Below, piece by piece: positions 46,693 through 57,317 of a stretch of 64,000 nucleotides of DNA. The first letter of the stretch is position 1. The number at the start of each line of letters is the position of its first letter. Both the position numbers and the translations under genes were made by a program. The DNA is from Chthoniobacteraceae bacterium. Its GTDB lineage: Bacteria; Verrucomicrobiota; Verrucomicrobiia; Chthoniobacterales; Chthoniobacteraceae. The stretch covers positions 1 to 64,000 of the forward strand of contig CANIWM010000011.1 in assembly GCA_947471505.1 (NCBI GenBank), in the 5' to 3' direction. Under the pieces are notes generated by a model. It had not been told where the DNA came from. It saw only the letters and a list, made by a program, of their open reading frames with translations, and did not search any database.

Positions 46693-46807
46693 TCTTTGGC
46701 GCTTAACTTCATCGGATTGCCCGTTTCGACTTTTAATCACACCCGCGCAGGCGGCGATTGTGAAAAAACGCGCTTCTTCCGCCGGGGATAATGGGTTGTA
46801 TGGGGCC

Positions 46808-49800
46808 ATGGATTCCTTTTTGAAAACTACACTGCTCTTGGTCGCTGCTGCTCCGCTGTGGGCGTCGGCTGCGGAGGACCGCGTTCTTTTTAACCGCGAT
46901 GTGCGGCCCTTGCTGGCGGAGTATTGCTACCACTGCCACGGCCCGGACCCCGGCTCGCGCAAGGAGGGGCTTCGCTTCGACCGCGAGGAGGGGTTCTTTG
47001 GCAAGCGCGAGGATGCGGGGCCGACGGTGGTGAAGGGGCAGCCGGAAAAGAGCCCGCTGTTCACGCGCATCACGTCCACCGATGCGGACGAGATCATGCC
47101 GCCGCCGAAGGAGCACAAGACGATGAAGCCTGCGGAAATCGCGGTGCTGAAACGCTGGATCGCCCAAGGCGCGGAGTGGCAGCCGCACTGGGCGTTCCTC
47201 GCTCCGGTAAAGCCCACGGTGCCAGCGGGCGGGGGGAATCCCGTGGATGCGTTCGTCCGCGAGCGGCTGTCAGCGAGTGGGCTGAAGCCTTCTGCGCAGG
47301 CCGATAAGCGGACGCTGGCGCGGCGTGTTTCGCTCGACCTTACGGGGCTGCCGCCTTCGCCGGAGCAAGTGGAGGCTTTTGTAAATGACGCGACGCCGGG
47401 CGCGTACGAGAAGCTCGTGGATGCCCTGCTGGCCTCGCCGCGCTACGGGGAGCATCGCGCGCGCTATTGGCTGGATGCGGCGCGGTATGGCGACACTCAC
47501 GGGCTGCACATTGATAATTATCGGGAGATTTGGCCCTACCGCGAATGGGTGATCAATGCGTTCAATCGGAACCAGCATTTCGACGAATTTACGGTGGAGC
47601 AGCTCGCGGGAGATTTGCTGCCGACGCCCACGCGCGAGCAGCTCGTGGCGACGGGCTTTCACCGCTGCAACATCACGACGGCGGAGGGCGGGACGATCCC
47701 CGAGGAAAATCTGGCAAACTACGCGAAGGACCGCGTGGAGACGACTTCGTGGGTGTGGCTCGGCCTCACCTCGAATTGCGCGGTGTGCCACGACCACAAG
47801 TTCGACCCGATCACGCAGAAGGATTTTTACGCAATGACGGCGTTCTTTCGCAACACGGTGCAGGATCACAGCGATAAGAACGTGCGCGATACTGCGCCGG
47901 TGCTGGTCATCCCGACGGGCGCCGACGCGAAGCGCCTCGAAGCCATCCCGGCGGAGATCGTAGCGACAAATGCGAAGCTCGCGGCGCGGCAGGCCACCAT
48001 CGGCGCGGACTTTGAAAAATGGCAGGCGACGGCGAAAGTGGAGTCCATCGAAGCGGCGACGAACACGAAGACGCTCGTCGCCCACATCCCGCTGAACGAC
48101 GGCGGTGGCGCGGTCGTAAAAGCGACCATTGCCGGGAAGCCACAGACTTTCCCCATCCTTCCGACGGTGCTGTGGAAGCCCGACGGCATTAGCGGCCCAG
48201 CCGCGCAAGTCGCGGATGGCGCGAGCATCGAGATCGGCGGGGTAGGGGACTTTGAGAAGAGCGACGCCTTTAGCGCCAGCGCGTGGTTTTTCCGCCCGGC
48301 GGCGACGACGGCGTCCGGCAGCATCATCTCGCGCATGGATAAAGGCGGCGGCTATCGCGGGTGGGACATTTATTACGTGGGCAACGAACTCACCGTTCAC
48401 ATCGTGAGCAAATGGACGGACGACGCGCTGAAGGTGAGCACCACGGATGAAGCCGGGAAGCCGGACCTGTGGCGGCACGTCGCCGTGAGCTACGACGGCT
48501 CTGGCAAAGCGGCGGGCGTGAAAATCTACGTGAGCGGCAAGCTGCGCAAGACGAAGGTCGAGGTGGACAAACTCAAAGGCAGCATCCGCACGAAAGTGCC
48601 GTTCTACATCGGGCGGCGTGCGGGTGGCCCCGGCGAGACATTTACCGGTGCAGTGCAGGACGTGCGGCTCTACACGGGCGCGCTGAATGCGAAGCAAGTG
48701 CTGGCGATTTACGAACTGCCCGACTTGCGCACCATCCTCGCGAAGCCCGTGCCCACGCGCACGCCGGAGGAGAAGCAGCGGTTGCTCGCGTTCTTCTCCA
48801 CAGGCGACCCGCAGGGTAATGACCTGACGCTGAAAGTGGCGGCGCTGGAGACGGAGAAAGTGGAGATTCAAAAGCGCAGCCCCGTCACCCATATCCAGAA
48901 AGAAAAAGAGGGCTCGATGCCGATGGCGCGCTTGCTCAGTCGCGGCCAATACGACCAGCCGAAGGAGGAGCTGAAACCCGCCGTCATCGCCGCGCTGCAC
49001 CCGATGCCCGCTGGCGCTCCGGGCAATCGTCTCGGCCTCGCGCAGTGGCTCGTAGCGAAAGATAACCCGCTCACCGCGCGCGTGACGGTGAACCGCTTTT
49101 GGCAGGAGATATTCGGCACCGGGCTGGTGAAAACGTCGGACGATTTCGGCATCATGAGCGACCCGCCTTCGCACGCGGCGCTGCTCGATTGGCTGGCCGT
49201 GGACTTCCAGCAGAACGGCTGGGACGTGAAGCGCTTCATCCGCCAACTCGTGACGAGCGAGACTTACAAACAGACCGGTGCTTTGACCAAAGAACTCATC
49301 GAACGCGATCCCGATAACCGCCTGCTTTCACGCGGCCCGCGCTTCCGCATGGATGCCGAGATGCTGCGCGACTACGCGCTCGCTGCCAGCGGCCTCCTCT
49401 CCCCAAAGATTGGTGGCCCAAGCGTTCGCCCCTACCAGCCCGACGGCGTGTGGGAAGCCGTGGCGATGCCCGGCAGCGACACGGGGAAATACAAGCGCGA
49501 CACCGGCGAGTCGCTCTACCGCCGGAGCCTATACACCTTTTGGAAAAGGAGCGCGCCGCCCGCGTCGCTGGAGCTGTTCAACGCACCGAGCCGCGAGACT
49601 TGCACCATCCGCCGCGAGCGCACAAATACGCCGCTTCAAGCCCTCGTGATGCTGAACGACCCGCAATACGTGGAGGCCGCCCGCAACCTCGCGCAGACCG
49701 CGCTCAAAACAGCGCCCAGTAATGCAAAGGCGACGCTCGACTTCATGGCTCGCCGCGTCCTCTGCCGCCCGCTCCGCACTGCGGAAGTCCCCGTCCTCGA

Positions 49801-49972
49801 AGCCAGCCTCGCCGCCCTCACCGCGCACTACACGCAAACGCCCGCCGACGCCACCGCCCTCCTCACCGTGGGCGACAGCAAAGCCGACCCCGCACTCCCC
49901 CCGCCACAACTCGCCGCATGGACGATGCTCGCCAGCCAACTTCTGAATCTCGACGAAGTGCTGAGCAAGTAA
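46808..49972 (+). CDS. Secreted c-type cytochrome protein with LamG domain (PSCyt1-DUF1549-LamG-DUF1553)
   Basis: The ATG at 46808 yields a Sec signal peptide ([18 protein letters not shown]); the frame is open further upstream but without protein-like sequence. 1054 residues. A heme motif CYHCH lies at residues 40-44 in a PSCyt1 domain. DUF1549 follows (about 110-330), then a LamG/concanavalin-like domain (about 430-620; [14 protein letters not shown] and [20 protein letters not shown]). The DUF1553 domain at the C-terminus carries [20 protein letters not shown]. The LamG insert suggests carbohydrate binding. It is paralogous in plan to the protein at 6290-9319, which lacks a clear LamG. Confidence 0.9.
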   Translation: [1054 protein letters not shown]

Positions 49973-50013
49973 CGTAAAGCACGGAGGAGGCGGGATTGCC
50001 TTTTGGAGCGCGA

Positions 50014-50112
50014 CGTAGCTCGACTTTCCAAAGTCGAGTCTGGGCGTTCTCGACCGGGAGAACTTTCCCCATTGAGGGCGTCAAAACTCGACATTGGAAT
50101 GTCGAGCTACGG
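50014..50112 (-). repeat. 88-bp REP-doublet element, copy 2 (inverted)
   Basis: Hairpins CTCGACTTTCCAAAGTCGAG (50019-50038) and CTCGACATTGGAATGTCGAG (50087-50106) are flanked by GTAG and CTAC. The end-to-end hairpin span is 88 bp. Orientation is opposite to copies 1 and 3, so copies 2 and 3 form an inverted pair around the repeat array at 50264-50539. Confidence 0.85.
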
Positions 50113-50263
50113 TTTTGCGTCCGCGCTTTACGAGACGCGCGGACCTCCGAGCCTCGTGCCAAACTGCCCGCCATCACCTGCAACGCTCTGATGGGCGATA
50201 CCACCCGACCTGCTGAACGTTTTTCCTTCCGAATGACCGCGTTACAGAGACGAGCACCGAATA

Positions 50264-50539
50264 TACAAGAATCTGCATTCATATAAATGGCGCGAATGTG
50301 CGAATTACAAGCGTCTGCGTTCATATAAAACGCCTCCGGATGGAGAAAAATCGGCTTTTACCTCGATTTACAAGCGTCTGTATTCATATAACTCAACCCA
50401 GAGACCGACGCGCACCAACCCAGAGGTCGATTTACAAGCGTCTGGGTTCATATAACAGCGGTCCGGCACTCATTTACACGCGTATGGATTCATATAACAT
50501 GGGGGAATTCGACGATTACAAGCGTCTGCGTTCAGGTAA
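50264..50539. repeat. Array of six helically phased 23-nt repeats
   Basis: Repeats begin at 50264, 50306, 50369, 50433, 50475 and 50517. The core is TACAAGCGTCTG, two or three variable bases, then TTCATATAA. The first and fifth copies are the most divergent; the sixth ends in TTCAGGTAA. Start-to-start distances are 42, 63, 64, 42 and 42 bp, near multiples of 21 (two helical turns). Intervening sequences are unrelated to each other and 19, 40, 41, 19 and 19 nt long, which is unlike CRISPR spacing, and no cas gene is nearby. A TCGAT-like lead precedes several copies. No gene is supported between 49973 and 50789. Confidence 0.85.
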
Positions 50540-50566
50540 TTCGTGCCATATTGCGAACCTTAAAAA

Positions 50567-50664
50567 CGTAGCTCGACATTCCAATGTCGAGTGAGCGTCG
50601 GGGAAAAGCAGGGCGTTCGTTCTGACGAAGATGTCCAAACTCGACTTTGGAAAGTCGAGCTACG
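50567..50664 (+). repeat. 88-bp REP-doublet element, copy 3
   Basis: Hairpins CTCGACATTCCAATGTCGAG (50572-50591) and CTCGACTTTGGAAAGTCGAG (50640-50659) are headed by GTAG and closed by CTAC, with an 88-bp span. The central part (GGGCGTTC and GAAGATGTCC) can form a third hairpin. A long reading frame enters the next gene from here, but this part is repeat, not protein. Confidence 0.85.
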
Positions 50665-50789
50665 CCGCGCGTCCGACTTGCCGGGCCTACGGTGCAAGCG
50701 TGCTCTCTTTGTCATGTCCTCTTTTATTCACACCCTTGCGCGTGTTTTGGGAGCTTGCGTGGTTTGCGATTGGAAGGCACGACATCGCA

Positions 50790-53700
50790 ATGTTGTCTTT
50801 AGTCGCCTATTTGTTTCGCTCCGCCGTCGTCGTAATTCTTTTCGTGCAGATTGCACGTGCGGAGGTGGCTCTTCCGCAGGATGCCCACGTTCTGTTTTAT
50901 GGGAACGCTTTAGTGGAGCGGTTGCTGGAGCATGGTGAACTGGAGGCCCGGGTGCAGATCGCGACTCGCGGGAAAAATGTTCATTTTCGCAGCCTCGCTT
51001 GGACGGGCGATGAAGTGGCGAATCGCCTTCGCGCGGAGGGCTACGCGGCGCACATGAAAGACTTGCTCGCTGCGTGGCCGGCGAATGTTGTGGTGCTGGG
51101 CTACGGGGGGAACGAGTCGTTTGCCGGCGGGGCGGGACTGCCAGCGTTTCGCTCGGCCCTGTCGGGGTATTTGGATCAATTGTCGCGGCTGCATCCGGGC
51201 GCGGCGTTTGTGATCCTGTCTCCCATCGCGACGGAGGGCGATGCGACTCGCACGGCTGTGGTGAAACTTTATGCGGATGCGCTGGCGGACGCGGCGAAGC
51301 AGCGTGGGGCGCTGTTTGTGGATTTGTTCGCGGCGAGTGCGTCGGCCTATGCGAAGAGCAAGACGCCGCTGACGACGAATGGGATTCATCTGAACGACGC
51401 GGGTAATCACGAGATGGCCGTCGTCATCGCGTCTGCACTCGCGGGGAAAGCGGCAGAGCAAGCGAATGCGGCGCACGTGAAGGAGGTCGCGGCGGCGGCT
51501 TCGCAACTCGCATATTACACGGCGGAGGTCGTGCGTCCGAAGAACGGCATTCTTTACTACGGCCAGCGGAAGCGCGCGAATGAGCGCGCGGCGGAGTTGC
51601 CGCTTTATCTTGAGCGCATTTCCAAAGCGGATGCGATCGTGCACGAAGTCGCGGCGAGCGAGGGCGCGAGGTTCGCGGACTTTCCGTTTATCGCGCTGGC
51701 ACCGTTGCCGCCGGTGACGAAGGGCGGCTCGAACAGCGGCGTGGGCACGGTGAAGTCGCCTGCGGAGATGCAAGCAGAGCTGAAAGTTGCACCGGGATAT
51801 TCGCTGAATCTGTTCGCTTCGGAAGAGCAGTTTCCCGAGCTTCGTGCGCCGGTGCAGATTGCGTTCGACGCGCGCGGACGGCTGTGGGTCGTGACGATGC
51901 CGAGCTTCCCGCACACCGTTCCAGGACAACCGCAGGAGGATAAAATCATCGTCCTCGAAGATACGGACCACGACGGCACGGCCGATAAATGCACGACTTT
52001 CGCAGGCGGGTTCGACGCGCTGGACGGCATCGCATTTACCGAAGATGGCGCGCTCATCGGCGAGCAATCGCGCCACTGGCTGATGCGCGACACCGACGGC
52101 GACGGACGCGCGGATACCAAGACGGAGGCGCTGCGCGGGCTCGATGTCACCGACTCGCACCACGGCGGAATGGTGGCGACAGATCCAACCGGCGGCGTGT
52201 GGTTTTCCGACGGCGTATTTCATCGTTCGCAATTTGAAACGCCGTTCGGGGTGCATAGGGGATTTGATTCTTCGACGTATCGGCAAGACATGCGCACGGG
52301 GCGCATCGAGACGGAGTGGCAGAGCCTCACTCCGAATCCGTGGCGTGTGACTTTTGACCGCACGGGCAACGTCTTCCAGATGTATGGAGGTGGCGACGTG
52401 CTCGACGGATTGCAACTGACATGGACCCCGCTCGGCATTTATCAGCCGTACGCCTTCGGCAAGTTGCTCGATTACGGCAAAGGCAGCGGAGCCACGAGCA
52501 TCTCAAGTCCGAACTTCCCCGACGAATACCAGCAGGGCATCGCCAACGGCGTGCTGCTCGGGCCCTATGTGGTGGCACTGACAAAATGCGACTTCAGCCA
52601 AGGCGCAGTGCGCGGCAGTGACCGACTCGACTTGCTGTCGTCGGCAAACCCCGCGTTCCGCCCCGTGGATATGAACTTCGGTTTCGACGGCGCGCTTTAC
52701 GTGTCGGATTTCTCCAGCGCGATCATCGGTCACGCGCAAAACCCGATGCGCGACGCGCGCTGGAATCACACCAAAGGCCGCATCTGGCGCGTCGTGTATG
52801 ATGGCAAGCCGGTGGTCAAGGACTGGCCCGCAATCGAAGGCCGCCCTGCACCGGAGCTGTGCGCTTTGCTCACGCATTCGCAGGACATCGTGCGGCATCA
52901 CGCACGCATCGAACTGCGCAAACTCGGCAAGCCCGCACTCACCGCTGTGGATGCGTGGATTGCTGGAAAAATGAGCGATGATCAAGCCGTGCTCGAAGCG
53001 CTCTTCGTATGCGAGGGGCGCGGCGAAACACGCCCGGCGTTGCTCGGTGCTTTGCTGAAATCGCAATCACCGATGCACCGTGCTGCCGCTGTGCACCTCG
53101 TCCGATTGCAGGCAGCGCGGCTGCCGGATTTTGTCGCACTGCTTGAAAGCGTCGCAGCCGATCCGCATCCCCGAGTGCGCATGGAAGTCGTGGACGCCGT
53201 CGCTCATCTGCGCCCGGCATTCCCAGTGGTCGAGAAACTCGTACACGCCTTCCACGGCGAGCAAAATGGGAGCGTGAAACAAATGCTCGCGGACCTTTCT
53301 TTCGGAACCGCCGCTCGGCTTGGCAGCAGTGTGCCGGTGCTCGAAGTTCCGAAGGACGCTCTACTCGCGAAATGGAATAGTCTCGGCGAAGGAGTCTATC
53401 AGACGTTCATCCGCAGCGATGCCGCGCAACCGGCAGTGCTCGCGTTGCGATACAGCTTTCTCGACGTATCGCTCAACGGAGTCCAAGTGCTGTCATTTGA
53501 CTCGCAATGGAGCAGCGATCAACAGGCCCGTCTAGAGTTGCAGCCTGGACTGAACACGCTGGAGATTACATATCGGAAGCTGCGCAACGCACCACCGGCA
53601 GTGCATCTCTTTAGCCCGATCGGCGAGAAACTCTCCGGCGCACAGTTGCCTTCCGACGACACGCAACTCGCCGCTTTTACCGCCGAGTATGAGAAAGCGA

Positions 53701-54626
53701 ACGCCAAGCTCGGCAAGGCGCTGCGAGTGCAAGCGGTGCTGAATCAAATGATTTTCGCACCACGCGAATTGCGTGTGAAGCCCGGCGCGAAAGTGCGGCT
53801 CATTTTCGATAACCCGGACCTCATGATGCACAACTTTGTGTTGCTTGCGCGCGGCGCTGAAGAGGAAGTTGGCGCGCTCGCAGACAAACTCGCCGCCGAC
53901 CCAAATGGCATGGCGAAGAACTACGTCCCTTTGTCGCCGAAAGTCCTATTCGCGACTCCGCTGGTCGCGCCAAACACGAAGGCCGAACTGACCTTCGACG
54001 CGCCGAAAGAGCCGGGCGAGTATCCTTACATTTGCACATTTCCCGGCCACTGGCGCGTGATGAAGGGCGTGCTCATCATTGATGCTCCGTCGCAACTCGA
54101 TCCGCGAACGAATGCCGCACTCGACGGCTTCGAAGCTCGCATCCCAAAACTCCGAATCGCCGTCGCAAAGACCGAAGACAAAGCGAGCAATCCCGGCGGC
54201 GGTTCGGATGCCAGCGCGCTGTTTAACGGCACCACGCGAAACGGCTCCGCACAAGCCGCCACGCTCGACGACGGTAAGACTTTCCGTGGCTACGGAAAGG
54301 GCGACATGCTGACCGTCATGCTCGATACGGCCAAAGCCCACGGAGGATACGACCTTTCAGAAATCCGCACATTTGCCGGCCACGGCGACGGACGCGCATC
54401 GCAGGCATTCAAGCTTTTAGCAGCCACTGCGCACGAGCCTACGAAGTTCAATCTAGTCGAGACCGTGAAGCTCCCGACGCAATCGGGAGCTACGGAAGTC
54501 AGCATTGCCGCCAGTTCGAAGCTGCGGGGGATCGTGGCTCTGCGCTTCGAGTTTTCGGATGGGCCGCTTGGCTACAACTTGTACCGCGAAATTGCCATTC
54601 AGGGCACTCCGAGCGCAGGGCATTGA
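50790..54626 (+). CDS. Giant secreted protein: SGNH-like, dehydrogenase-type propeller, HEAT-like and azurin-like domains
   Basis: The start at 50790 gives a signal peptide (LFRSAVVVILFVQIARAE) and 1278 residues. Residues about 25-225 resemble an SGNH hydrolase (VVVLGYGGNESFAG, NGIHLNDAGNHEMA). From about 325 there is a PVC membrane-bound dehydrogenase-type propeller (GYSLNLFASEEQFPELRAPV; DTDHDGTADK; DTDGDGRADTKTE). HEAT-like helices lie at about 720-880. An azurin-like cupredoxin (about 980-1110) has MMHNFV and CTFPGHWRVMKG, giving the His-Cys-His-Met type 1 copper set. A C-terminal beta domain completes it. The protein probably oxidises a sugar-type substrate and passes electrons to its own copper centre; the catalytic cofactor is uncertain. 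Confidence 0.82.
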   Translation: MLSLVAYLFRSAVVVILFVQIARAEVALPQDAHVLFYGNALVERLLEHGELEARVQIATRGKNVHFRSLAWTGDEVANRLRAEGYAAHMKDLLAAWPANVVVLGYGGNESFAGGAGLPAFRSALSGYLDQLSRLHPGAAFVILSPIATEGDATRTAVVKLYADALADAAKQRGALFVDLFAASASAYAKSKTPLTTNGIHLNDAGNHEMAVVIASALAGKAAEQANAAHVKEVAAAASQLAYYTAEVVRPKNGILYYGQRKRANERAAELPLYLERISKADAIVHEVAASEGARFADFPFIALAPLPPVTKGGSNSGVGTVKSPAEMQAELKVAPGYSLNLFASEEQFPELRAPVQIAFDARGRLWVVTMPSFPHTVPGQPQEDKIIVLEDTDHDGTADKCTTFAGGFDALDGIAFTEDGALIGEQSRHWLMRDTDGDGRADTKTEALRGLDVTDSHHGGMVATDPTGGVWFSDGVFHRSQFETPFGVHRGFDSSTYRQDMRTGRIETEWQSLTPNPWRVTFDRTGNVFQMYGGGDVLDGLQLTWTPLGIYQPYAFGKLLDYGKGSGATSISSPNFPDEYQQGIANGVLLGPYVVALTKCDFSQGAVRGSDRLDLLSSANPAFRPVDMNFGFDGALYVSDFSSAIIGHAQNPMRDARWNHTKGRIWRVVYDGKPVVKDWPAIEGRPAPELCALLTHSQDIVRHHARIELRKLGKPALTAVDAWIAGKMSDDQAVLEALFVCEGRGETRPALLGALLKSQSPMHRAAAVHLVRLQAARLPDFVALLESVAADPHPRVRMEVVDAVAHLRPAFPVVEKLVHAFHGEQNGSVKQMLADLSFGTAARLGSSVPVLEVPKDALLAKWNSLGEGVYQTFIRSDAAQPAVLALRYSFLDVSLNGVQVLSFDSQWSSDQQARLELQPGLNTLEITYRKLRNAPPAVHLFSPIGEKLSGAQLPSDDTQLAAFTAEYEKANAKLGKALRVQAVLNQMIFAPRELRVKPGAKVRLIFDNPDLMMHNFVLLARGAEEEVGALADKLAADPNGMAKNYVPLSPKVLFATPLVAPNTKAELTFDAPKEPGEYPYICTFPGHWRVMKGVLIIDAPSQLDPRTNAALDGFEARIPKLRIAVAKTEDKASNPGGGSDASALFNGTTRNGSAQAATLDDGKTFRGYGKGDMLTVMLDTAKAHGGYDLSEIRTFAGHGDGRASQAFKLLAATAHEPTKFNLVETVKLPTQSGATEVSIAASSKLRGIVALRFEFSDGPLGYNLYREIAIQGTPSAGH

Positions 54627-56996: not shown

Positions 56997-57317
56997 TTAG
57001 CGGCGTTTGAATTCCTGCTCTTCCGAGCGGCGGCGCTTCATCTCCTGTTCGTCGGAGCGACGGCGTTTCATTTCTTGGTCGTCGGAACGGCGACGTTTGA
57101 ACTCCTGCTCGTCAGAACGACGGCGCTTCATCTCCTGCTCTTCCGAGCGGCGGCGCTTCATCTCTTGCTCCTGAATCTGTGATTCACTGACGACCATCGC
57201 TTGGAGAGCGGGGCCGGCAATGAAGGCAAAGGTCAGTGCGATAAGGACTTTTTCACTGTTGTTGTGTTGTGTTGTTTTGCCCCTGCCACACCTTCCGGCT
57301 TTTTTGCTTTTGTGCAC
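56997..57317 (-). CDS. Small exported protein with six charged decapeptide repeats
   Basis: 106 residues from a GTG start. A hydrophobic segment (VLIALTFAFIAGPALQA) with a basic lead and an Ala-x-Ala end looks like a Sec signal peptide. The mature part is almost entirely six units of EEQEMKRRRS type (variants DEQEFKRRRS, DDQEMKRRRS), the last truncated at EEQEFKRR. Acidic and basic blocks alternate every ten residues. The 30-nt DNA units differ mostly at third codon positions (for example CGGCGGCGC against CGACGGCGT), which suggests selection on the protein. A strong terminator follows. I know no family for it; it may bind nucleic acid or polyanions, or self-assemble. Confidence 0.65.
   Translation of the reverse strand: MHKSKKAGRCGRGKTTQHNNSEKVLIALTFAFIAGPALQAMVVSESQIQEQEMKRRRSEEQEMKRRRSDEQEFKRRRSDDQEMKRRRSDEQEMKRRRSEEQEFKRR

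Follow-up and report, generated by a model that had tools for sequence, protein, structure and literature searches.

The repeat array and its surroundings

The 64,000-nt stretch of a Chthoniobacteraceae bacterium contig analyzed here ("the window") carries an array of short phased repeats between two genes on the same strand. A PSCyt-type gene lies upstream and a GDSL-DUF7133-HEAT-cupredoxin gene downstream, with a pair of REP palindromes on either side of the array:

46760–49972, + strand: upstream gene, encoding a PSCyt1/PSCyt2/PSD1 (DUF1549/DUF1553) protein, orthologous in congeners
50008–50111, no strand assigned: GTAG-type doublet of REP palindromes next to the array; a separate repeat class (PMC3733652)
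50243–50545, + strand: whole phased array, about fourteen 21–22-bp units, with homology to C54:14471–14801 (77%) and G034:C113 (Prosthecobacter debontii), starting from about 50242 in all three
50264–50286, + strand: repeat 1, a variant (TACAAGAATCTG) shared with the first repeat of the C54 array
50306–50328, + strand: repeat 2
50369–50391, + strand: repeat 3
50394–50430, no strand assigned: within spacer 3, a pair of degenerate units (CAACCCAGAG...) that keep to the 21-bp phase
50433–50455, + strand: repeat 4
50475–50497, + strand: repeat 5
50517–50539, + strand: repeat 6
50565–50670, no strand assigned: REP palindrome doublet between the array and the downstream gene
50790–54626, + strand: downstream gene, GDSL-DUF7133-HEAT-cupredoxin, with a likely ATG at 50790 and an open frame from 50631; candidate controlled gene

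The six 23-nt repeats of the preliminary description were recovered at exactly the same starts, with spacings of 42, 63, 64, 42, and 42 bp; allowing up to three mismatches, the sequence TTACAAGCGTCTGNNTTCATATAA matches six times in the window, against 0.00 expected from shuffles. The DNA between the repeats had been called unrelated, which is wrong: the spacers are conserved across homologous arrays (below) and contain further boxes in 21-bp phase, with [AT]T[AT]ACA about every 21 bp and CCAACCCAGAGGTCGATT within the third spacer. For this reason the start of the array is placed near 50243 rather than at 50264; homology with the two other known arrays extends over about 300 bp and begins in common 21 bp before the first listed repeat. 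The whole can be described as about fourteen contiguous units of 21–22 bp, most of them with an [AT]T[AT]ACA-like box at the start, among which the six listed repeats are the best-conserved sites, with weaker units between them in the same phase. The two central positions of the repeat vary freely, and the degenerate units of spacer 3 carry a partly inverted repeat core (TCTGGGTT / AACCCAGA).

Between the end of the array and the next start codon there are 250 bp, including the second REP doublet. REP doublets of this GTAG type (CGTAGCTCGACATTCCAATGTCGAG / CTCGACTTTGGAAAGTCGAGCTACG) have dozens of partial copies in the genome, and one is also found upstream of the homologous array on contig C54. 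In the congeners examined, synteny breaks after the PSCyt gene, and in three congeners the homologues of the 50790 gene have no array. Two other repeat signals were seen in the window: a weaker 21-bp signal at 24.8 kb, inside a long open coding frame, and a tandem repeat of 30/60/90 bp at 57001–57170, possibly coding.

Homologous arrays and an ArsR-type gene

A search for the core motif throughout the genome (6.07 Mb) found 12 copies, in just two arrays, with all spacings multiples of about 21. No copies spaced off the helical multiples were found; both arrays are phased at about 21 bp, as anticipated from the six repeats. The second array is on the minus strand of contig C54 (14502–14778), with spacings of 42, 64, 64, 42, and 42 bp. 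When about 85,000 species genomes were scanned with the exact pattern, one further array came up, in a Prosthecobacter debontii MAG (L013), with the same series of spacings; this strain has only the C54-type array. C54 and P. debontii are 93% identical in repeats and 79% in spacers, and C54 and the window array 89 and 63%; spacer identity between the window array and either of the others is 62–63%. In every pair the spacers are less conserved than the repeats. Changes private to the window array are found at 6 of 125 positions in the repeat core and 39 of 162 in the spacers, so this copy still looks constrained, a pattern that could however be mimicked by homogenization within or between arrays.

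Since the spacers are conserved between species, the earlier judgment that this is not a CRISPR locus is borne out. Interspersed repeats are a feature shared with CRISPR and TIGR arrays, but spacers 79% identical between species and 62–63% between paralogous arrays are not variable in the manner of guides; the period is fixed to helix turns, and the flanking genes tested are not of Cas type.

No arsR gene or remnant of one was found in the window. The C54 array, in contrast, is directly upstream of an ArsR-type gene (C54:14111–14467, minus strand), and about 40 bp separate the end of the last repeat from the start codon of this gene, at C54 as well as in P. debontii. These two arsR genes encode PF12840 proteins of 119–126 aa and are convergent to a 2-oxoacid dehydrogenase E2 gene; beside the E2 gene in the congeners examined, neither this arsR nor this array was seen. 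The C54 protein matches PF12840 above the cut-off (E 1.7e-10), which identifies it as an ArsR-type winged-helix HTH protein, and a profile of the wider family matches SmtB (PDB 1r1t, E 3e-11) and other ArsR structures. By profile (PF12840/PF01022), the fold is thus that of the ArsR/SmtB regulators such as SmtB, CzrA, NmtR, and the autorepressor SdpR. Unlike the classical metalloregulators, the C54 protein has no cysteine, and therefore no cysteine metal-binding site, and its score of 42 against the NCBIfam HTH_metalloreg model NF033788 is below the cut-off of 55. An AlphaFold model of the P. debontii protein, made with no alignment, was poor (pLDDT 49).

A family of ArsR-type regulators with phased arrays

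Non-orthologous relatives of the C54 arsR also have repeats phased at 21/42 bp upstream, with a different sequence each time. Searching the phylum and the class by profile (388 and 384 genomes), all within the Verrucomicrobiota, gave a family of 65 members. An array rule requiring matches at multiples of 21 bp was passed by 57 of these, from several Verrucomicrobiota families, as against one of 42 control ArsR genes, and the sole passing control (G000:C1) is a borderline family member. The arrays have periods of 21/42 bp and mostly private sequences. Over lags of 15–90 bp, the mean self-match shares were 37, 30, 13, and 7.5% at 42, 84, 21, and 63 bp, respectively (88% together). Such shares among the passing members are not independent evidence, because the rule itself demands multiples of 21; free lag scans upstream of the relatives do not depend on it, and they too ranked 42, 84, 21, and 63 bp at the top. 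The arrays span a median of 291 bp and stop a median of 78 bp short of the start codon, start codons in the family set having been assigned by rule. Several of the genes that failed the rule (G442:C46a and b, G027:C161, and G000:C109) do have arrays, recognizable by eye, whose units are 22 bp long or whose repeats are weak; no array was seen at G734:C9, G766:C118, or G766:C126. On a protein tree, in which many forks are weak, the array label changes 10 times, compared to 36 with shuffled labels, and ordinary SQYN-type and other ArsR genes form separate groups. ArsR-type regulators of this kind, most of which have an array of their own, form a family that extends across the Verrucomicrobiota.

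Six other arrays were tested in the genome considered here, and each was found only beside its own arsR. One chromosome can hold at least seven different arrays; among congeners their presence is patchy. A search of plasmid DNA with the array gave no match, and a search of plasmid proteins gave only distant ArsR matches. In viral contigs there was neither an array nor a relative of the FDGVSKHL subfamily.

Some individual loci have features of their own. L183 (G599:C8, 514274–514954) and L199 (G591:C3, 206321–206998) each encode two array-ArsR domains in a single 227-aa protein, downstream of a 42/84-bp array. At L228 (G000:C100, 3922–5276) the array-ArsR gene overlaps the start of mraW (16S rRNA methyltransferase) by 4 bp, which suggests an operon. 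At L226 (G000:C32) a DUF7133-HEAT-cytochrome c gene follows directly on an array-arsR module; a DUF7133 gene also follows the window array.

Array sequence was compared with the recognition helix of the adjacent protein. Helix identity correlates with shared array 6-mers (Mantel r 0.268, 0 of 2000 permutations), and also among pairs less than 50% identical (r 0.097, 20 of 2000). FDGVSK[HQ]L helices, from several families, go with CCGCC[AT][AT] in six of eight cases, against one of 57 others (P 2e-6); one of the arrays with this motif is that of G757:C327, which was looked at only after the motif had been recognized. In the TLKHL group, GCTTG[TC] is found in 10 of 14 arrays, and in three of 51 elsewhere (P 1e-6). 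The core of the window motif, the 8-mer ACAAGCGT, recurs at C54 and at one other array only, G599:C1, where the loop and helix (GRGPDGISKH) resemble those of C54 (GRWPDSISKH). By these sequence comparisons, the same recognition helix tends to go with the same repeat core even across families, although a gene and its array may in part simply have descended together, which would account for some of the correlation.

Possible roles of the arrays

A protein-binding array on one face of the helix, of the kind used by multi-site regulators, had been proposed from the six repeats, and this gains support from the arrays, both homologous and different in sequence, that precede ArsR-type genes. The window array is probably an operator for the small ArsR-fold regulator encoded at C54:14111–14467 in the same genome. 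ArsR-family dimers span about two helix turns. A unit of 21 bp, equal to two turns of B-DNA, would then accommodate one dimer, and since there would be one dimer of this size per unit, neighboring dimers would lie on one face of the helix and in contact. Touching dimers could build a nucleoprotein filament, cooperative and some 300 bp long. Where the array directly precedes arsR, as at C54, such a filament would cover the arsR promoter and give steep autoregulation, that is, highly cooperative control by the regulator of its own synthesis. Autoregulation is typical of the ArsR/SmtB family, but its known operators are one or a few short sites, not phased arrays of 200–500 bp. Although no arsR adjoins the window array, its repeats appear constrained, and it probably serves as another target of the regulator, in trans (or else is a remnant); most likely it would put the GDSL-DUF7133-cupredoxin gene at 50790 under the same control. 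Points against this are the missing arsR, the 250 bp with REP palindromes before the 50790 start codon, and the three congener homologues of that gene that have no array. Binding, filament formation, the direction of regulation, the identity of the controlled gene, and the role in trans are all predicted from sequence comparison.

Cooperative winged-helix filaments on DNA have been described for BldC and RdfS; along smeA-sffA, BldC is bound at every helix turn (PMC11963761). The arrays considered here have a strong unit sequence at intervals of two turns, whereas no clear consensus exists for RdfS. BldC and RdfS also belong to protein families other than ArsR.

Of the other readings, the one that fares best, though it is still rather doubtful, is that an array-arsR module was duplicated and its arsR copy then lost, perhaps through REP insertion, leaving a window copy that regulates nothing. 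The REP doublets on either side would fit this, as would the lack of an array at the congener homologues of the downstream gene and the occurrence of the C54-type array alone in P. debontii; that the window has no trace of arsR can be counted on the same side. Avoidance of the repeat core by the window-only substitutions, however, would not be expected in a dead copy, barring gene conversion.

Considerably less probable is a centromere-like or chromosome-organizing site, coated by the ArsR-like protein much as TubR coats tubC or ParR coats parC, that anchors or partitions DNA instead of controlling transcription. parC lies before its own operon, just as the arrays precede the gene of their presumed binder, and the genes next to the arrays are unrelated to each other. 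In type III plasmid partition, winged-helix TubR assembles on its own centromere, tubC, as a superhelical nucleoprotein complex (PMC9178275). The arrays differ in having no TubZ or other motor nearby: the neighbors tested (helicase, MraW, aminotransferase, chorismate-binding, and similar proteins) include no motor NTPase, whether tubulin, actin, or ParA. Nor is there a plasmid-like locus here, and neither the number of different arrays per chromosome nor their patchiness in congeners is what a centromere would lead one to expect. The partition locus suggested in the preliminary description is accordingly unsupported.

It is very improbable that the array acts as RNA, transcribed as a guide-like sequence or structured leader. 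It does lie upstream of a gene, and some hairpins can be drawn in single sequences, but folding is no better than in shuffles (z 0.03 and −0.94), there is no Rfam match, neither homologue preserves the strongest hairpin (AACCCAGA/TCTGGGTT), and the motifs track the recognition helix of a protein. A repeat-coding sequence of seven-codon heptads, decayed (as first suggested) or intact, can practically be dismissed: 21 bp is indeed seven codons, and 30 of 55 arrays have an open frame, against 10.6 in simple shuffles, as would any repeat with a 3n period, but the other 25 have none, the homologous C54 array among them, the open frames are inconsistent, and some periods are 41, 44, or 64 bp.

That arrays lie next to unrelated genes suggests a module whose inheritance or movement is not tied to any single pathway. 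A further and more tentative possibility is that array and arsR together form a self-contained, mobile-like chromosomal module. It would spread through genomes of the Verrucomicrobiota, settle next to housekeeping genes that have nothing in common, and go on diversifying the specificity with which its protein reads DNA; transcription factor and private filament site, phased at 21 bp, would then make up a selfish or epigenetic-switch element. Full-text literature searches turned up such arrays in no paper, which is weak evidence, several of the searches having come back empty. Within the literature searched, a dozen or more phased sites before a tiny ArsR regulator appear to be an undescribed type of operator. 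Dozens of regulator-array pairs with visible changes in specificity would provide a natural data set on how winged helices read DNA and on the co-evolution of proteins and their sites. In a phylum whose regulation is poorly known, filament-type regulation and hysteresis, and possibly chromosome architecture, could also be tested on these arrays.
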